Assembly (NCBI GenBank): GCA_002011035.2
Contig: MTLY02000003.1
Location: 303,194-367,193 of the forward strand
DNA: 64,000 bases
Reading direction: 5' to 3'
Origin: Candidatus Hecatella orcuttiae
GTDB lineage: Archaea > Thermoproteota > Bathyarchaeia > Hecatellales > Hecatellaceae
Shown in pieces: positions 3,127 to 60,105 of the stretch. Numbering within the stretch: the first letter of the stretch is position 1; each line of letters starts with the position of its first letter. A program made the translations under genes and the position numbers. The notes under the pieces are model-generated. The model saw nothing but the letters and a program-made list of their open reading frames with translations. It was not told the DNA's origin and did not search any database.

Positions 3127-6100
3127 GCCAACAGGAAGCCCAAAAGAAAAACGGCGAACCCTTAACAGCCGTCGCCTACGTGGACACTTCCAAACTCCCC
3201 AAAGGTTACCGGTGGTCAGGGACACCGGGCCGGTCGGCCATTCTTACGCCCCGCGGCGTGGCGATTCCCCCGCCGGGTCCTAGAGGCTACGAAACCTACG
3301 GGTCAGCGGAAAAAGAGCAGCGAGAATTTGAACGGTTAGCCACGAAAATCGAGATCCGCGGAGGCCCCAAAGCGGGGAGAGCCGTCACCGTCACAGGCCT
3401 CGCCCCCGGCGAAACCGTGGAAGAGGCTGCCCGCCGGGCGGCTAGGGAGCATGTGAAATTGGCCACAGGCAGAGAGCCTAGGGTCCAAATCGTCTACGGA
3501 GCCCGGGTGGCTGCGAGAGGCGGGAGAAGGGTGGTTGAACCCGTAGCGGGGATAGTCCAACCCACTGGCGTACCCGTGTTCGCCTTGAAAGCTGAACTCA
3601 CCCCGAAAGCCAAACGGGAAGTCGAAGCCTTCCTAGCGGGAACCCCCTACAAGGAGCCGGAGTTGAGGGAAACACCGGAAGGCGTCGAACTAGCCTACAA
3701 GGTGGAGGAGCCCGGTGAAACCTATTGGGTGGTGGAAGGCTATCCTGAGCGGCGGTTTGCCACCGAGGCGGAAGCCCGAGCCTTCGCCGAACTGGTATCA
3801 GGCCCAAGAGCCGAATTGGCAGCGGACCTAGGAGGCAGGGAGGGGGCGATCCCCCTAGCCCCCGGCATCTTCAAAACCATCGAGGACACCGTGTTCGACC
3901 CCGACGCGCCCATCCTAGGTTATGTGGAAATTCCCCGCAAACCTTTGGCTGTTCACCCCCTCGGAGCCTACCCGGCTCCCTTCACCACTTACAGGGAAGC
4001 CCGGCCTTTTACCAGCGTTTTTGAAACCCCAACCGGGGAAACCATGGTCGAACCCGACGTCTTCGCTGAACCGCCTTCTCTGCCCAAATCCTTAACCGAG
4101 CAGCGGCTTGAGAAGCTTTTCGCCCTAGAGAAAATGCTGGGAGAGCTTGAGGGACCTCCTGAAGAGTTCGCCGCCCTCGGAGCCTACGCCATAGGGGTCC
4201 CCCCGACCAAGGAGGAGTTTGAGGCTGTCACAGGCTACCGGCCTGAAAGGGAGGCCGCCCAGCTTCTCGGCAGGTCCATAATCGAGTATGAGAAGGCCTT
4301 CGCCGCGCCCGTCTACGGCATCACCGAGAACATCGTTAGAACCGTGGAAGACATCCACGGAGCGGTCACGGGAAGAGAGCTTTTCCCCATCCCCTATGCC
4401 GTGAGGGTGAAGGCTGCCCCTGAAGAATTCCTGTCCCTAGAAGCCCGCGCCGTCACGGGGAGGATTTCGAAGAAAGAACTGGAAGCCGTCGCCGCCTACA
4501 GGCCTGAGTTCAGGTTTGAAGTCGTCCCTGAACTTGAAAAACCCTACACGCCGAAGCCCTACGCCCCCACAGCCTTCCAAGCGGTCCTCACATCGGTTCT
4601 GGAAACTGGAAAACCCCTAGCCGAACCTCCACCTGAAGCCCTCCCAGGTTTGGGGAGGTTGGCTGTCGGCGTTCCCCCCACCGAGAAAGAACTTGAAGCC
4701 ATCACCGGCTACCGCCCCACCGTTAGGCCCGTCCTTTCCAAGGAGATGCGGCGGCTGCTCAAACCTGAGATGCGGGGTTACGCGTTGGGCTCCCTTCTCT
4801 ACGAGGCCGCGCTGTGGTATGGAATAAGCAAACCCTTGGAGAAAGGGCTTAGGCTCACCTCCAAAGGTATAGGCAAAATAGTTGAATATTATAGGGCTCC
4901 CTTCAGACCAAGGGTTCCTCCCACAACCAGATACGTTGAACGAGTCCCCGGGGCCCTAGTTAAGAGGGTGGGGTATCCGAAGAGAACTCAGAAAACTTTC
5001 CGGGAAATCCCCTATACGAGGCTTGGCGTGGAAGACCTTAAAGTGGTCCCTCCTGAAGGGTACAGGCCTCCCTTGGCTAGCCATTTACGGGTCATCGAGG
5101 TGACCGCAAAGCGGCAGGCCAAGCTTCCAGAATATTTCGTGATAACAGCCAAAGACGTAACTGATGTAATCCCATCCAAAGAGGCGGTTTCCCTATTTCC
5201 CAAAATCTTGGGGAAAACCCGTAGAATCCAAGTCCCTCCAACCCAGGCGACGGAGTTCATCTTCAGAATTAAGAAGGGCAGAATCCGGTTGGTGGCGGAG
5301 GTTCCCTCGACCATGCGCGGTGTCCCCATAGCGATGAGGCCTTGGAAGAGGGTAGGGGGTCTACAAGAAACCTTAGGCCCTAAGTTTCGATGGACCCCCG
5401 TCAAACCTAGAGCTAGGGAGATTCTGAAGATTGAAGAAGAGTTCACCAAGGAAGTAGGCTACAAACCTCGAACACCGATTCCCCCCAGCCGCCAAACCTT
5501 CCTAGCCCCGCCTCCACCGGGGAGGCCCTATGAAGCCATACCCGCCCCGCCTCCCTCGGTCATGGAGAAAGCCGTCGAAGCCGTGGACCCCTTCGCCCGG
5601 TGGTCCCCCATCCTAGCCGCCCAAGCCTACCTCCAACCCCGGGTCACGTATCCCAAGGGAACCGACATGTGGGCCCGGTTGGAGGGGAGGTTTAAACTCC
5701 CACCCGAATACCGAACACCCACCAAGTTAGGCGTAGCCCCCACCCGCAAGCCTAAGTTTAAACCCTACCCCAAACCGTACCCCGCCATCCTCCGCATGAG
5801 AAAAAGAGGGAAACTCTTCGAAAGGGGAACCGTCGGGTTTAATGTCGACGTGGACCGCGCCTTACGCCCCTTAACAAAGATAACCCGCCAACCCGCCCGC
5901 AAACCTAAGGAGGCCCCCGCCGCCGACATCGCCCAAGAGATCTTCCCCAGGATGAGGGAGAGGCCCACCGTCGGGGTTACGCCCACTCCCCGTTTTAAGG
6001 TGGCCCCTGGGCAGAGGGTAGGCGTCATGCCCCGGCAGCTTCTCAGACAGGTTGCTGAAACTGTTCAAATGCAGGTTGAGCGCCCATGGGAGAGAAGACG

Positions 6101-49428: not shown

Positions 49429-49628
49429 GGGGTCTCAGATCCTTTAACATCGAAAGATAGCTGTTCAGTCTTAAGTTATACTTTGTCTATTATTTTAGAC
49501 TTCCACCTAAAAAGTCTTCTTCCACATTTAAAAAGCCTTTCACCTAGGTTAAACCGTTGAAGGCTGAGATACCCTTGAAACCGGTTTCTGGAAAACGGTT
49601 TTATACGGTTACAGGGGGAGGTAGTATC

Positions 49629-50774
49629 ATGGTTAAACCCTCTCTGGGAAAGGTATTCCTCGGAATTTTACTTCTCTTGCTAACGCTACCTATGGTGGCG
49701 TATTCAACTCCTCAAGCTCCCACTGTTCAAACCGACAAAGAAACCTATGGAAGCGGCGACTACCTCAACGTCACAGGCACGGCTGAGCCGAATTCGCTGG
49801 TTTCTCTGCAAGTTCTTGACCCTGAAGGAAACCTGAAAGGTGTTGCTCAAGCCCGTGTTTCTTCCCAAGGAACCTACGCTGTGGCGAAGGTGTACAGGTT
49901 TCAAGAGGACGATCCGGAAGGAGAATGGAGGGTGATAGTGTACCAAGGAGGCATTTTCTCCGAGGCCAAGTTTCAGTTCACACTCCCAGCGCCGACACCT
50001 ACACCTACACCAACCCCGACCCTTACACCCACGCCTACTCCAACTCCGACGCCTACGCCAACCCCTACGCCTACTCCCACCCCCTCCCCCACCCCCACGC
50101 CAACACCCACACCCACAGCCACCCCCACACCGACTCCCTCTGCTGAAGGGAAAAAATGCATCATCGCCACCACCACTTATGGCTCAGAGCTGGCTCCGGA
50201 AGTGCAATTTCTGAGGGGTTTCAGGGAAAACGTCGCCCTCAAAACCTTCGCCGGAGCCCAGTTCATGAGGGTTTTCAACGCTTGGTACTATTCCTTCAGT
50301 CCTTCAGTGGCCGGCTTCATAGAGGCCCACCCGTCTGTTAAAGGAGTGGTGAAAGTTTTTCTCTACCCCCTCATCGGAATCCTTCACTTGGCCGTGGCGG
50401 CCAACACCGTCTTCAGCTTTAACGGTGAACTTGGTATCACCGTAGCCGGGCTTGTAGCCGGCGCCCTGATAGGAGTTGTATACTTTGCCCCCCCAACCGC
50501 TCTGGTTCTCTACGCTGCGAGGAGGAAGAAGGAAACCCTGGCCCTAGGAAGCCTGTTGAAGCCTGTCTCAATGCTTTGGCTTCTGGGTGCCTCCCTGATC
50601 CTTGTAGGTGAACTGGTTGCCTCCGAGTTTCTCATGATGGCTGCGACAGGATTGTTTGTCAGCTCAACGGTAGCCATCACCGCAACCGCGGTGGCATTAA
50701 AAATTTTGAATGTCCAACGAAAAGCTACCGCTAGTCTCCTTTCCAAAGGAAGGGCCTCAAACAGGCGAGGCTGA
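49629..50774 (+). CDS. Surface protein with Pro-Thr repeat and CFI-box C-terminal membrane domain
   Basis: The protein of about 381 residues starts at ATG 49629, preceded by GGGGGAGG (the frame is open from 49557). A signal peptide ([20 protein letters not shown]) leads into an Ig-like domain ([20 protein letters not shown] ... [12 protein letters not shown]). A Thr-Pro repeat of about 60 residues and the CFI-box-like segment [21 protein letters not shown] follow, then [16 protein letters not shown] and four transmembrane helices. The repeat suggests a rigid, probably glycosylated stalk. The CFI-box module is shared with the protein at 58426. A sorting or anchoring function for this module is proposed in bacteria. 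Confidence 0.78.
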
Positions 50775-52931: not shown

Positions 52932-53010
52932 GGGGTGGTGGTCCAGCATGGTCTACGATTCCCGGCTCGGGCCCGGGAGGTCGGGAGTTCAAATCTCCCC
53001 CACCCCACCA
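52932..53010 (+). tRNA. tRNA-Pro(CGG), no intron
   Basis: Acceptor GGGGTGG (52932-52938) pairs with CCACCCC (53000-53006), followed by A and an encoded CCA (53008-53010). The anticodon stem CCCGG/CCGGG holds the loop CTCGGGC with anticodon CGG. The T-arm is GGGAG-TTCAAAT-CTCCC. The length of 79 nt equals that of the spliced tRNA-Pro(TGG), supporting the intron assignment there. Confidence 0.96.
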
Positions 53011-54600: not shown

Positions 54601-54681
54601 ATATCTGGTTTTTAGAAAGGCAGTAATCCAGATATGTCGTTCTCTTAATATTTAAAAGCATGTTTGCCCAAATTGGGCAAA
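54601..54681 (+). promoter_or_regulatory. Operator-like palindromes around the promoter of the RHH gene
   Basis: An inverted repeat ATATCTGG (54601-54608)/CCAGATAT (54628-54635) lies just upstream of a TATA-like TTAATATTTAAAA (about 54645-54657). Immediately after it is the perfect odd palindrome TTTGCCCAA-A-TTGGGCAAA (54663-54681), at the expected transcription start. The RHH protein encoded at 54776 is the natural candidate to bind, giving autoregulation. Confidence 0.6.
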
Positions 54682-54775
54682 ACGGACGCCTGTCCTCGGC
54701 GAGTGTGGTTTGGGAAGAGATGATACTCTTGACTGGTAACGTGAGGTGAAGTGAATCGTTAAGAGAATAATATCT

Positions 54776-55267
54776 GTGAGGTTGAATGAAAATCTGGTAA
54801 GGCAAGTTGAGGATGTAGTTTCATCCGGTTATGTCGACTCCCTGACGAATCTTGTCAGCAAATGTCTCGAATTAGGGTTGAAATATTCCTTTTACATGTG
54901 GGACAGGGGTGTCTGGCACTTTCATGGCATTAGGGTAGGGGCCTTATCCAAAAAAAGCTTTGAAATTATATTTAAGCACGCAGATGACCCATATAAAGCT
55001 GGGAGGGAAGTAGGGAAAGGCTTCAAAAATTACATCAAATACTCTTTCAAAAAAGACTCTATTAAAAGAAAGGATTGGAATGCAATGCTTAGGGAGGTTG
55101 AACCCATTACGGGGTGGGGTAACTACGTTCTAACTAATGACATCATCACCGTTGCCTCCCCGCTACCGCCTCGGGATTTCCTGAGAGGATTCCTCGAGAG
55201 TCTTCTGGGCGTTAGATTAAAAATGGCTTCGGATGAGCCTCTTCAATTTCAGATTCTCGGAGGATAG
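54776..55267 (+). CDS. Ribbon-helix-helix regulator with C-terminal effector-like domain
   Basis: The 163-residue protein begins with an RHH-like region (VRLNENLVRQVEDVVSSGYVDSLTNLVSKCLELGLKY). A domain of unknown function follows, with aromatic segments (FYMWDRGVWHFHGIRVGALSKKSFEIIF) and a helical end (PPRDFLRGFLESLLGVRL). The sequence upstream of GTG 54776 also reads like the beta strand of an RHH domain (KRIISV) but has no standard start codon. It probably controls itself through the palindromes at 54601-54681 and perhaps the surface-protein genes downstream. Confidence 0.6.
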   Translation: MRLNENLVRQVEDVVSSGYVDSLTNLVSKCLELGLKYSFYMWDRGVWHFHGIRVGALSKKSFEIIFKHADDPYKAGREVGKGFKNYIKYSFKKDSIKRKDWNAMLREVEPITGWGNYVLTNDIITVASPLPPRDFLRGFLESLLGVRLKMASDEPLQFQILGG

Positions 55268-55352
55268 GAGACCTAGAACAATGGCTTCAGACGCTATATC
55301 CGCATGGTAGGTTTTAAATAGATATGTTATACGATGTATTACAAAAAAAGTC

Positions 55353-56696
55353 GTGAGAACATCATTGGACCGAAAACTGGTGTGGGTGGTCCCCGTCTTT
55401 CTCATGCTACTCAGTTTGTCAGCTTTTCCCTTTGCTTTGGCTCAACAAGCCTACACGCCTTCCACGCTGGTTTTGAGAGTTTACGGAGATGGTGTTGTTC
55501 AAGTCGAGTACGGCATCGAAACGGATGTAACCTATCCACGGATAAGCGTAAGCCTCTTCGGCAATGTCTTCGAAGAAGTCATAATTGTGAATCAGGACGG
55601 AGTTCCCCTGGACTATGAAGGAATCGATGGGGAAGTGATAATCGATACGCTTGGAGCTGAAGCTGCGGAGATCACCTACTTCACCTCCGACCTGACAAGC
55701 AAGTCGGGGAGAATATGGGTCCTCGAGTTCGAGCCGCCCATTCTCACCAACATAATTCTGCCAAGGGGAGCAACAATCATCAGCCTAAGTCAGACACCTG
55801 TGGCCATCAGGAGTGTCGACGGACAGACCCTGTTAACCATGCCGGCTGGACGTTTAGAGATAACCTACGTTGTCGGAGTCACCGGAACTAGAGAGCACGC
55901 CCTCATCCTCATCAATGAAGCTGAAAACAAGATTGAAGAAATAAAGGCTCAAAACATCATCGTCGCCGACGCGGAAACCAAACTCCAAGAGGCAAAGGAA
56001 GCTTTCAGCCGTGAGCAATACGTTGAAGCTGAGCAGCTGGCCTCCCAAGCTGAAAACCTAGCTGTCCAAATTGAGGCCGCGGCGAAAAAAGCCAAAGCAG
56101 CTATAGTTGAGGGTGAATCGTCTGTTGAAAATGCACGGCAAGAGGGAAGAACCTCTGGTTTAGCCGAAGCTCAAATCCTCCTGCAGCAAGCAAAAGATGA
56201 ATACTCTGCAGGTAACTACGAGAAGGCTGAGCAGTTGGCCTCCAAGGCGGGGATCACAGCTGAAAGCGCCAAGCCTCCACCTCCCTCCACACCCACTCCT
56301 ACGCCTCTCCCCACACTAGCAGGGGGAAGGATCCTTTACTGGTGGATCGGGATCTCTGCGCTAGGAGTGGCTCTCGCTATGTTGGCTTTCAGACTTGTGA
56401 AGAAACCTAAGCCGGCAGAAGTCTCGCGGGAAAGGAGAACTATAGATGTTGAGAAGTTGTTCAGGCTTAATCCCCAGCTTAGAGATGAGGACCGTGAGGC
56501 TGTTCAATTCATAGCCGAATGCGGCGGTGAAGCCTTCGAGGGGGAGATTCGTAAAAGGTTCAAGCTGCCCAAAACCACCGTATGGAGAATGATGCAACGC
56601 TTGGAAAGGGAGGGTGTGGCGGAAATTCTCAAAATCGGCGGCCGAAACCTCATTCGGATTAAATCAAAGTATGAGGTTAAAGGTGAAACGAGGTGA
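55353..56696 (+). CDS. Membrane-tethered transcription regulator: extracytoplasmic sensor, transmembrane helix and cytoplasmic winged helix
   Basis: The 447-residue protein has a signal-type N-terminus (VPVFLMLLSLSAFPFALA), then a beta-rich extracytoplasmic module of about 150 residues (LVLRVYGDGVVQVEYGIETDVTYPRISVSLFG onwards, residues about 35-175). Two copies of a helical repeat follow (KAQNIIVADAETKLQEAKEAF and EAQILLQQAKDEYSAGNYEKAEQLASKAG), then a Pro-rich linker. One transmembrane helix (YWWIGISALGVALAMLAFRLV) leads to a cytoplasmic winged helix (EIRKRFKLPKTTVWRMMQRLEREGVAEI). GTG 55353 lies shortly after a TATA box (about 55314-55321). The module is shared with the protein at 58426. 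Confidence 0.82.
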   Translation: MRTSLDRKLVWVVPVFLMLLSLSAFPFALAQQAYTPSTLVLRVYGDGVVQVEYGIETDVTYPRISVSLFGNVFEEVIIVNQDGVPLDYEGIDGEVIIDTLGAEAAEITYFTSDLTSKSGRIWVLEFEPPILTNIILPRGATIISLSQTPVAIRSVDGQTLLTMPAGRLEITYVVGVTGTREHALILINEAENKIEEIKAQNIIVADAETKLQEAKEAFSREQYVEAEQLASQAENLAVQIEAAAKKAKAAIVEGESSVENARQEGRTSGLAEAQILLQQAKDEYSAGNYEKAEQLASKAGITAESAKPPPPSTPTPTPLPTLAGGRILYWWIGISALGVALAMLAFRLVKKPKPAEVSRERRTIDVEKLFRLNPQLRDEDREAVQFIAECGGEAFEGEIRKRFKLPKTTVWRMMQRLEREGVAEILKIGGRNLIRIKSKYEVKGETR

Positions 56697-56770
56697 AACA
56701 GTGTCTTCACTCCGTTTCAGAGCATCCCTATTTAGTGAGTAAGACCTAAACTAATTTAGGTGATTTGAGA

Positions 56771-58384
56771 ATGGTGCTCGCAAAGTATAGGGTAACCTTC
56801 CTCATCCTAGCAGTTTTAATGTCCTCTTCGCTGCCGAGCCTTCTTCCCGTTGGATTGGCGCAGACTGAAGAAGACCAGCGTATCGCTGTTGATGAGCTTT
56901 TAGAAATCCTCGAAGCGAGCAAGAGTTATGTGGAAGCGGCTTTCAGCAGGCTTGAAGACCTAGGAATACCGATACCGGATGTTGCTAAAGATAAATATGA
57001 AGAGGGGCTTTCGCTGGCTGCTACAGCCGTTCAACTGAGGGATGAAGCCCGCTATGAGGAAGCTAAAGAAGTAGCCCTTCAAGCTATGCAAATATTCAAA
57101 GAAGTGTCGTTGGAAATAGCGCCGGATGTAGAGGAAGCTGAGACCCCAGAGGAAAGAGAAGCCTACGAAGCCATAGGGTTGACGGCGGCCAGAGAGCGGG
57201 CTGAAGCCTTCATCAACAAGCTGGACAGCTTGGCGGACAAGGCTGAAGAACTCGGATACGACGTTTCAGCCATCTGGGAAATCATAGATGAGGCGAGGGA
57301 CATCTTAAGCACGGGAGCAAGTCTTGTGGAAGCAGGGGATGTTGACGAGGCAGGGAGGCATATCGGTATGGCCATCAGTACAGCTGCAAAAGCCATGGGA
57401 GAGGTTCGACCTATAATAAAAGCTAACAAGGCAGTTCAAGCTCAGAGGTTTCTTGAAAAAGCCGAAGAACGATTGGCAAGGCTGGAAGAGAGAATAGATG
57501 TGCTCAGCAGGCTGCCGGCTGTCCTTCCACCGCAGGCAGAGCAGGGCATAAGACAGGCTCAAGCGGCTTTAGAGAATGCTAGAAGCCGGGTAGCGGAAGT
57601 CAGAGCTCTTCTGCAGGCGGGGAATATCGAAGATGCTATAGAAGGACTCGAAGATGTGAGGAGGAACGCTGAGAGAAGCCTCGAGGAGTTCGGAGGAGCG
57701 AAACCGGAAGTTGCAGAGAACCTAGTCGCCATCGAAAGAATCAACGCGACGCTCGATTTCTTAAAGGAAAGGCTGGAAGACGCCAGAGCCAAAGACATAA
57801 ACGTCGACCAAATTGAAGAGACTTTAAGGAGGGCTGAGGATCTCCTATCCCAAGCCGTGGAGCACCTGCAAGAAGAAGAAATTGAGGATGCGTCCCAAGC
57901 TATAGATCAAGCTGAGGACCTTGCAGATGATGCAGAAGACCTGTTGGAGCAAGTCGTAGAGCTGGTGGAGAGGGAAGAAGGAGAGGAGGCGAGAGAAGAA
58001 GCCCGAGAACTGGTTGAGGAGATTATGAGAAACAGGGCTGCCCTTAAGCAGCTTAATGCAACCATCTCCCTTCTCTGGGAGAAGTTAACGGATTTGGAAG
58101 GCAGAGGCGTGGATGTTGCAGGAATCGAAAACACCCTCAGAACAGCTTATGACTTTCTCCAAGAAGCTTTGAAGCATATAGATGAAGGGGACGTCGATGC
58201 GGCCTCGGACCTCATGGCGCAGGCTGAGGTGATAATGGAGGAGGCGGAAGAACTTATAGAGCAAGCTAGAAAACAGGCAGAAGAAAGGCAGCCGGAGGGC
58301 GCTGGAGAGCAGTCTCAAGGCAGAGGTCCGCCTAGCGAAGCAGGCAAGCCCCAAGTCCCTTTTTTTAATCAAATAGAAAAATAA
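56771..58384 (+). CDS. Secreted alpha-helical repeat protein
   Basis: The protein of about 537 residues has a signal peptide (VTFLILAVLMSSSLPSLLPVGLA). A long chain of acidic amphipathic helical repeats follows, with units such as IEETLRRAEDLLSQAVEHLQEEEIEDASQAIDQAE and IENTLRTAYDFLQEALKHIDEGDVDAASDLMAQAE. The soluble end is rich in Gly/Pro/Gln, and no membrane anchor is seen. The repeat resembles the helical units of the neighbouring tethered regulator. ATG 56771 is preferred for its AGGTGA site. A ligand or spacer role outside the cell is inferred from context. Confidence 0.75.
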   Translation: MVLAKYRVTFLILAVLMSSSLPSLLPVGLAQTEEDQRIAVDELLEILEASKSYVEAAFSRLEDLGIPIPDVAKDKYEEGLSLAATAVQLRDEARYEEAKEVALQAMQIFKEVSLEIAPDVEEAETPEEREAYEAIGLTAARERAEAFINKLDSLADKAEELGYDVSAIWEIIDEARDILSTGASLVEAGDVDEAGRHIGMAISTAAKAMGEVRPIIKANKAVQAQRFLEKAEERLARLEERIDVLSRLPAVLPPQAEQGIRQAQAALENARSRVAEVRALLQAGNIEDAIEGLEDVRRNAERSLEEFGGAKPEVAENLVAIERINATLDFLKERLEDARAKDINVDQIEETLRRAEDLLSQAVEHLQEEEIEDASQAIDQAEDLADDAEDLLEQVVELVEREEGEEAREEARELVEEIMRNRAALKQLNATISLLWEKLTDLEGRGVDVAGIENTLRTAYDFLQEALKHIDEGDVDAASDLMAQAEVIMEEAEELIEQARKQAEERQPEGAGEQSQGRGPPSEAGKPQVPFFNQIEK

Positions 58385-58425
58385 TAATAAATGAAAATCA
58401 GGAATAATTAGCGAAGGTGACGTGT

Positions 58426-60105
58426 TTGCCTAGCTTGATGAGGAAAAGTGTTTCCTTAACTATCCTCCTGATCTTGGTGTTATCCGTCCAGACTCTTCCG
58501 TCCGCTCAGGCTCAAGAGCCTTACAGTCCCGTCGACCTAACGTTGACGGTGTACAGCGATGGATTCGTCCATGTGGAATACCTTCTCGAGGTAGACGTGG
58601 CTTATCCGAGGATCACCGTTACGCTATTCGGGCGCACTTTTGAAAACCTACTCATTACCGACGAAGATGGGCTGCCGTTAGATTACTTCCTCTCTGAAGG
58701 CGAGGTCACAGTCGACACGTTGGGAGCGAGGAGGGTGAAGATCACCTATGACACATTGGATTTAACAAGCCGCGTAGGTAGAACATGGACTCTGACCGTA
58801 AACACCCCTGTAGAGGCCGTCATAACATTCCCAAGGGACTTCACCTTGATCAGCCTAAACCAAGTGCCCGTGGCCTTGGAAAAGACTGAGGGGCAACTTC
58901 AGCTTACCATGCCTTCGGGGCTGCAGGAGATAGTCTACGCCCTCACCATATCTGCACCGGCGCCACCGAAAGAGTTTCAGGTTGGTAACCTCAAAATCAG
59001 CCCAGTCGACGTAGTGGTAGGCGAGGAAATAACCGTCACGGTGGATGTGGTGAATATAGGAGAAGAAACAGGCACGGCTACTGTGACACTTAAGGTCAAC
59101 GGAGTGGTTGAAGCTGAAAAAGAAGTTACGCTGGCTGGGGGTGCATCGCAGACTGTATCCTTCACTCTAACTTGGGACACAGCAGGAGTATACGAAGTTC
59201 AGGTTGACAGCCTCGTTGAGACGATCACTGTCACCAAGGCTGCAAGTGTAATCACCGTTTCAGTTTCCCCGACGCAGATCGATAAAGGCGAATCGGTTAC
59301 CGTGTCAGGGTTGATTTCGCCCCCAGTCCCGGGTGTGGAGGTTTACTTGGCTTATATGAAAGCTGGAGACGTGGTCGTGGAGAGAACAGTGACCACGGCT
59401 TCCGACGGGTCTTTCACCGATGTCTATGTCCCGGATGCCGGCGGCTCTTGGAGCATCACAGCTCGGTGGGAAGGCAACGAGCAGTATCAGGGAGCGATGA
59501 GTTCCCCGGCTGGTTTTGAAGTAGTGGATAAAGGCTGCGTCATCGCCACCGCCACCTACGGGTCGGAGTTGGCAGCTGAGGTTCAGTTTCTCCGCGGCTT
59601 CAGGGAGAACACGGTCTATTCAACGTTCGCCGGAAGCCGTTTCATGGAGGTCTTCAACGCTTTCTATTATAGCTGGAGTCCTACGGTGGCCGGCGTGATC
59701 TGGAGCCACAGCGCCCTGCAAACGGTGGGAAGGATGCTGATCACACCGCTTCTAGGGATTCTCCACGTTTCAACAGCGGTCAATTCGGTTTTCAGCTTCA
59801 ACCCTGAACTGGGAATAGTGGCAACTGGACTGGTTGCAAGCTCCCTAATAGGCCTCGTATACTTCTTCCCGGTAGGTTGGGTGCTGGTGAAGGCTGTGAG
59901 GAGGCGTTGGGGTGCCGTTCCGAAAACCGGATGCCTTAAATCTTTACTGATCCCTTGGGCTGCCAGTCTGGGTTTGATCGGCCTCGCGGAGGCTCTGGCC
60001 TCCTCGGTTTTAATGATGGTAGGCGCAGGGATGCTGGTGGTCTTCACCGTAGGACTAACAGCGGGAACCCTCGCTCTAGGAACAGTGAACCTTCTCAAAA
60101 AATAG
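58426..60105 (+). CDS. Surface protein with shared sensor-type module, CARDB-like and Ig-like domains, and CFI-box membrane domain
   Basis: The protein of about 559 residues has a signal peptide (SLTILLILVLSVQTLPSAQA) and a beta module (LTLTVYSDGFVHVEYLLEVDVAYPRITVTLFGRT onwards) clearly homologous to that of the tethered regulator at 55353. A CARDB-like domain (VVVGEEITVTVDVVNIGEETGTATVTLKVNG) and an Ig-like domain (VSVSPTQIDKGESVTVSGLI) follow, then the CFI-box segment GCVIATATYGSELAAEVQFL, FRENTVYSTFAGSRFM and about four transmembrane helices. TTG 58426 is used because AGGTGA overlaps the earlier GTG 58417; ATG 58438 is possible. Confidence 0.8.
   Translation: MPSLMRKSVSLTILLILVLSVQTLPSAQAQEPYSPVDLTLTVYSDGFVHVEYLLEVDVAYPRITVTLFGRTFENLLITDEDGLPLDYFLSEGEVTVDTLGARRVKITYDTLDLTSRVGRTWTLTVNTPVEAVITFPRDFTLISLNQVPVALEKTEGQLQLTMPSGLQEIVYALTISAPAPPKEFQVGNLKISPVDVVVGEEITVTVDVVNIGEETGTATVTLKVNGVVEAEKEVTLAGGASQTVSFTLTWDTAGVYEVQVDSLVETITVTKAASVITVSVSPTQIDKGESVTVSGLISPPVPGVEVYLAYMKAGDVVVERTVTTASDGSFTDVYVPDAGGSWSITARWEGNEQYQGAMSSPAGFEVVDKGCVIATATYGSELAAEVQFLRGFRENTVYSTFAGSRFMEVFNAFYYSWSPTVAGVIWSHSALQTVGRMLITPLLGILHVSTAVNSVFSFNPELGIVATGLVASSLIGLVYFFPVGWVLVKAVRRRWGAVPKTGCLKSLLIPWAASLGLIGLAEALASSVLMMVGAGMLVVFTVGLTAGTLALGTVNLLKK

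Follow-up and report, generated by a model that had tools for sequence, protein, structure and literature searches.

A predicted membrane-tethered winged-helix regulator, its secreted helical partner and a candidate operator in Bathyarchaeia and other Thermoproteota

Genes and proteins of the locus

The window analysed here is a 64-kb stretch of the 1.75 Mb genome of Candidatus Hecatella orcuttiae, class Bathyarchaeia. It contains a gene for a membrane-tethered transcription regulator with a winged helix (wHTH), the sensor, followed by genes for a secreted helical protein, the partner, and for a surface protein with a CFI-box. The features are:

54663-54681, palindrome 5' of the RHH-like gene
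54776-55267, RHH-like gene, upstream of the sensor
55353..56696, + strand, sensor, membrane-tethered winged-helix transcription regulator, 447 aa, GTG start (ORF, homologues and AlphaFold model)
55443..55886, + strand, exported beta module of the sensor, residues 31-178 (strands 36-174; 49% identity to the CFI-box protein)
55887..56297, + strand, exported helical-hairpin segment of the sensor, residues 179-315 (AlphaFold helices; absent in short homologues)
56331..56399, + strand, transmembrane helix of the sensor, residues 327-349, with a basic cytoplasmic stretch after it
56436..56666, + strand, cytoplasmic winged helix of the sensor, residues 362-438, with the recognition helix region PKTTVWRMMQRL
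56695..56735, + strand, predicted operator and TATA-like element 5' of the partner gene (PWM match, in register with homologous sites)
56765..58384, + strand, partner, secreted all-helical repeat protein, 539 aa, with a signal peptide and no other transmembrane segment
58417..60105, + strand, CFI-box surface protein: beta module, CARDB, Ig-like domain and CFI-box C-terminus

The AlphaFold model of the sensor (mean pLDDT 88) consists of a beta sandwich (36-174), helical hairpins (180-304), a transmembrane helix (327-349) and a wHTH domain (366-436). The N-terminus is a hydrophobic segment, and the second transmembrane segment lies at approximately residues 327-349. In all 41 sensor homologues compared, the stretch after this second segment is richer in K/R than the stretch before it (mean 4.7 vs 1.1), which places the winged helix inside. 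The topology is thus the one originally predicted, with the beta module exported and the wHTH in the cytoplasm. In Foldseek the beta domain matched M1 aminopeptidases, at their N-terminal beta domain, and a subunit of oligosaccharyltransferase, OST (E 1.9e-6 to about 1e-4, probability 1.0). Most of 32 sensor homologues gave DUF7343/IclR/MarR/TrmB-like Pfam matches, and 30 of the 32 matched DUF7343 (PF24034) at E<=0.01. The sensor in the window scores 24.1 bits against this model, for which the curated cut-off is 27.6.

The secreted helical-repeat protein that had been proposed between the sensor and the surface protein is real and all helical (pLDDT 88). Its matches to solved structures were coiled-coil noise only, and were rejected as signs of kinship. 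No match to the CpxP/Spy (LTXXQ) family was found for the partner in the window, nor among the 25 families listed for 29 homologues. When profiles were aligned with hhalign, the helical segment of the sensor matched partner residues 55-206 with 92% probability and an E-value of 6.5e-7, a score in which coiled-coil bias is possible. The likeness of the two segments could partly reflect coiled-coil convergence.

A beta module common to the sensor and the CFI-box protein, as claimed in the original prediction, is borne out by a single BLASTP alignment of 174 aa, spanning signal peptide and beta module, with 49% identity (E=2e-49). Comparison of the two whole proteins gives the motifs YGDGVVQVEY...YPRISV and YSDGFVHVEY...YPRITV. 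These are the only two copies of the module in the whole genome. A recent duplication was rejected, as DNA identity is just 54% (238/441 nt). We found no fusion of the module to a CFI-box in the relatives searched or at the sensor loci, and CFI-box proteins occur near only two other sensors (L099 and L145). The combination of module and CARDB was otherwise seen only within sensors L142, L148 and L149. The module-bearing CFI-box protein is a lineage-specific addition downstream of the partner, peculiar to the genome of the window.

The gene at 54776-55267 had been read as an RHH regulator with palindromic operators. The palindrome is real; it reads TTTGCCCAAATTGGGCAAA, lies approximately 95 bp 5' of the gene and occurs once in the genome, which is consistent with autoregulation only. 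The RHH assignment comes from the appearance of the N-terminus, and the gene product matches no Pfam or NCBIfam model. The protease gene said to precede it is a genuine subtilase (PF00082, E=1e-65), with a tRNA-Pro(CGG) immediately 5' of it at 52932-53010. A second CFI-box surface protein is encoded at 49557-50774, 5' of genes for a universal stress protein and HMG-CoA reductase. It has an Ig-like domain, a Pro/Thr linker and weak similarity to the S-layer protein SlaB.

Gene linkage and a predicted operator in Bathyarchaeia

We searched 101 relatives with each protein separately, and clustered all neighbouring ORFs in the DNA around 52 bathyarchaeal sensor genes and three partner-only or related stretches. 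Sensor homologues are present in 44 of the 101 relatives, and a profile of close homologues also found the family in Candidatus Bathyarchaeota records. The gene linkage expected in relatives exists for sensor and partner, which adjoin at 46 of the 52 loci, or 47 of 53 counting the window; three pairs of near-identical loci are part of this count, and at three of the six loci without an adjoining partner the sensor is truncated by the end of a contig. The second commonest neighbour family of sensors is found at nine loci. Sensors L114, L129, L147, L217, L220 and L221 have no neighbouring partner. Three arrangements occur. The partner gene may follow the sensor gene on the same strand, in many cases overlapping it by 4 bp, or precede it on the same strand, or the two may be convergent. 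The persistence of linkage through such rearrangement suggests joint function. At the level of whole genomes, partner genes are found in 35 of the 44 genomes with a sensor and in 1 of the 57 without (p=1e-17).

The two proteins also diverge together. For 41 sensor-partner pairs, the tree distances of the two proteins correlate with a Spearman coefficient of 0.73. Seven genomes carry two to four pairs each, and the true pairing comes out top among the 4,608 partner exchanges possible within them, a permutation of paralogues that controls for species phylogeny and not for joint duplication of neighbours.

The three-gene order of the original prediction does not extend to relatives. No relative has the module-bearing CFI-box protein, and none of the other sensors read has the RHH-like gene or the subtilase nearby. 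We rejected the RHH gene as a part of the system, as its relatives are unlinked to sensors, its co-occurrence across genomes is weak (p=0.04) and its palindrome is unique. The subtilase was rejected as a fixed part because it is missing from all other fetched sensor loci. The conserved unit is the sensor with its secreted helical partner; neither the shared module nor the RHH gene nor the subtilase is conserved around the sensor. The functional tie originally predicted between a membrane-tethered wHTH protein with an exported sensory part and the secreted helical protein is supported by conserved linkage and topology.

Aligning the gaps after the sensor stop codon revealed a predicted operator, with the consensus GRAAC-N4-GTTYC-N5-GTTYC-N5-GTTYY followed by a TATA-like TNWAATA. 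It lies 5' of the partner in all three gene arrangements. A peptide, FQxVPxGSSN, at the N-terminus of partner ORFs was considered as a protein motif and rejected; its wobble positions are conserved and the element precedes the partner in other frames and arrangements, which identifies it as DNA. The full four-site pattern (at least 19/26) is found at 32 of 46 partner genes and at 7 of 857 other genes; the Fisher p-value of 4e-41 is descriptive, since some of the partners helped define the pattern. Most of the remaining partner genes have a shorter, three-site form. The seven other genes comprise a fragment of the same partner (L117), the divergent exported L098_02 and L099_09, the exported L135_09, L116_04 and L137_14, and a response-regulator gene, and several of them are plausible true targets. 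Scanning the 101 genomes with up to two mismatches gave 57 matches vs 5 for a reversed control pattern. At one mismatch or fewer, the operator is found in 22 of the 44 sensor genomes and in none of the 57 sensor-less genomes.

The copy in the window, GAAAC-N4-TCTTC-N5-GTTTC-N5-ATCCC-TATTTAG, is degenerate, and is in register with the homologous sites. With a PWM built without this copy, its score of 10.7 is the best of approximately 128,000 positions on both strands of the 64-kb window; the next unrelated site scores 1.3, and the maximum in ten mononucleotide shuffles was 8.6. The same scan found no operator before the subtilase or CFI-box gene of the window. Searching the rest of the genome with a pattern shaped on the window copy gave no second convincing site, and matches with three mismatches equalled the control; the idea of a regulon in this genome was therefore dropped. 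The original prediction overlooked this operator between the sensor and partner genes, which is the strongest evidence of a putative regulatory circuit.

In the clade of L111, L116, L135 and L137 the recognition helix of the sensor is distinct, of RTT(T/M)WR type, and the half-sites are TTTCC-like.

Spread through the phylum and comparison with known systems

A profile of 32 sensors matched 216 of 398 Thermoproteota genomes. Of 20 loci sampled across the phylum, 17 have a secreted, mostly helical protein adjoining the sensor. Eleven of the 20 come from one family, f27, and all eleven have it. Archaeal AmoA is present in each of ten f27 genomes tested and was not found in either of two bathyarchaeal ones; f27 therefore represents ammonia-oxidising archaea. 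Their operon has the order small wHTH, sensor, partner, and the last two genes mostly overlap by 4 bp. The extra small wHTH (MSKQQYRSEMGI...) precedes the sensor in L206, L208 and L211-L214, and a small protein with two transmembrane segments often follows the partner. A related array, GAAAC...GTTCC-N7-GTTCC-N8-GTTTC-N5-GTCCC followed by TCATAA, lies 5' of the whole operon in 10 of 10 loci examined. Three- or four-site forms of the operator are also found 5' of the partner in L203, L204, L216, L218 and L219.

Membrane-bound one-component regulators with a DNA-binding domain and at least one transmembrane segment, termed TTRs, are common in Thermoproteota (Demey et al. 2023, PMC10269533). The sensor combines both elements in one protein, which places it in this broad class, and would control transcription from the membrane, with the operator as indirect support. 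The accessible part of the survey defines TTRs by domain and transmembrane content and describes no partner, operator or beta-module family (PMC10269533).

In the bacterial co-component systems VtrA/VtrC, ToxR/ToxS and TcpP/TcpH, a tethered wHTH protein is encoded next to a partner, often with overlapping genes, as a co-evolving cassette (Kinch et al. 2022, PMC9214523). The sensor resembles these as a membrane-tethered wHTH protein with an adjacent, co-diverging gene for an extracytoplasmic partner. The VtrAC/ToxRS proteins have an N-terminal wHTH, an alpha-beta ectodomain and a mostly lipocalin-like partner (PMC9214523). In the present system the wHTH lies at the C-terminus, an M1-N-like domain with helical hairpins makes up the ectodomain, the partner consists of helices only and the gene order is variable. 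These different folds and the opposite domain order place the system outside the VtrAC/ToxRS superfamily.

ArnR and ArnR1 of Sulfolobus are membrane-bound one-component regulators of genes for surface structures, and bind repeated boxes near promoters (PMC6396743). The accessible part of that source describes an N-terminal HTH, a HAMP-like part, two C-terminal transmembrane helices and the box TCGAC-N5-GTCGA, and no secreted partner. The sensor does not share this architecture, having a C-terminal wHTH and one transmembrane segment after the exported part. In the CpxA-CpxP system of bacterial envelope stress, a secreted helical accessory protein is controlled by the sensor that it modulates. 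CpxA-CpxP is, however, a histidine kinase system, and we found no relation to it in sequence or fold. The likeness to ToxRS/VtrAC or CpxA-CpxP is most likely functional, without homology.

We found no published description of the sensor-partner-operator system in the literature searched, which lay mostly outside subscription journals. The findings suggest an ancient and apparently undescribed way of linking cell-surface state to gene expression in these archaea. Surface sensing in this phylum is poorly known, and few archaeal membrane-bound transcription factors have been studied. Here, a conserved sensor comes in one package with a probable partner and a probable DNA target. The system is also present in ammonia-oxidising archaea, some of them cultured and of global importance, and this makes binding, knock-down and expression tests concrete.

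Proposed mechanism, alternatives and further operator sites

We suggest that the tethered regulator reads the GTTCC array, controls its own secreted partner and senses the state of that partner in a homeostatic loop, and we consider this the probable reading. In brief, the sensor would be a single-pass transmembrane transcription regulator with its winged helix in the cytoplasm, and its outer part, an M1-aminopeptidase-N-like beta sandwich with helical hairpins, would face the space beneath the surface layer. The winged helix would bind the array of GTTCC half-sites, spaced approximately one helical turn apart and directly 5' of the TATA element, which belongs to the partner gene or, in ammonia oxidisers, to the joint operon. 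The sensor would thereby set the amount of partner made and, in some species, of other exported proteins. The outer part of the sensor would close the loop by sensing either the partner or something bound by it at the surface, so that free partner or partner load at the surface would set sensor activity. Such a loop is consistent with partner genes being targeted almost universally and with sensor and partner diverging together. In sensors without the helical segment any contact with the partner must use the beta module. The promoter is probably activator-dependent, since the array lies 5' of the TATA and its last half-site occupies the BRE position without being BRE-like; we infer that the sensor may act as an activator. 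DNA binding by the sensor and its contact with the partner are likewise inferred. The relay of surface state to gene expression that was originally proposed is probably real. The two observations named beforehand as counting against it, genes that do not co-occur and a wHTH on the outside, were checked and did not arise, since sensor and partner are linked in relatives and the wHTH lies inside.

We read twenty extra or unplaced operator sites; where a clear gene follows, it mostly encodes an exported protein. These are paralogous partners (L163, L168 and L172), a DUF5667 protein (L169 and L171), an Ig-like exported protein (L166), short exported proteins (L155 and L170) and, in one relative (L153), a secreted S8 subtilase of 1,033 aa, different from that of the window. 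The partner could on this account be an output only, a structural or chaperone-like envelope protein, with the sensor detecting an unfolded or glycosylated surface protein or the state of the membrane; the beta module resembles domains of polypeptide-handling proteins, M1 aminopeptidases and an oligosaccharyltransferase subunit, and this points the same way. We regard this as unlikely, though the most serious of the alternatives. Partners co-diverge with their own sensors in genomes with several pairs, as specific contact predicts, sensor and partner share similar helical hairpins, and the partner is a near-universal target while the others vary.

It is more doubtful still that a different cytoplasmic regulator reads the operator, the membrane wHTH protein being a co-regulated neighbour. 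The operon of ammonia oxidisers does include a small wHTH gene. This gene was, however, not seen beside bathyarchaeal sensors, the array (<=1 mismatch) is confined to sensor-bearing genomes with its place kept across classes, and in one clade the half-site variants track the recognition-helix variant. The sensor winged helix is the simplest reader of the array, being the DNA-binding protein that co-occurs with it and having a clade-specific recognition helix where half-sites are TTTCC-like.

The full model of the original prediction, in which the modules of sensor and CFI-box protein compete for one ligand and the RHH gene and a sensor-cleaving subtilase are further parts, is very improbable: the module is common at 49% identity and the genes adjoin in the window, but RHH relatives are unlinked to sensors, neither RHH gene nor subtilase occurs at the other fetched sensor loci, relatives lack a module-CFI fusion, the subtilase and CFI-box genes of the window lack the operator, and neither ligand competition nor cleavage has comparative support.

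Returning to the homeostatic loop, its broadest form would be an ancient, phylum-wide signalling system of Thermoproteota, shared by ammonia-oxidising archaea. A membrane regulator with a C-terminal winged helix would detect its own secreted helical partner directly and adjust it via the conserved GTTCC array, and co-component or envelope-stress feedback would have been invented independently in archaea. For this form we consider the case evenly balanced.

The operator also lies 5' of genes for single-domain response regulators (L128:10791-11231 and L162:175-612), which hints at a link to two-component signalling. For several extra sites no gene is evident, or the site is at the end of a contig. 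At L158, L159 and L167 (approximately 5001-5035), good operator and TATA-like sites are followed by no clear protein gene; these may serve a small RNA or a short exported peptide. A family of exported proteins of approximately 150-180 aa (FFWGKY..SWKA) is encoded near the sensor at L135:8733-9281, L116:4175-4714 and L137:8636-9094, and has its own clade-specific operator of the TTTTCC type.
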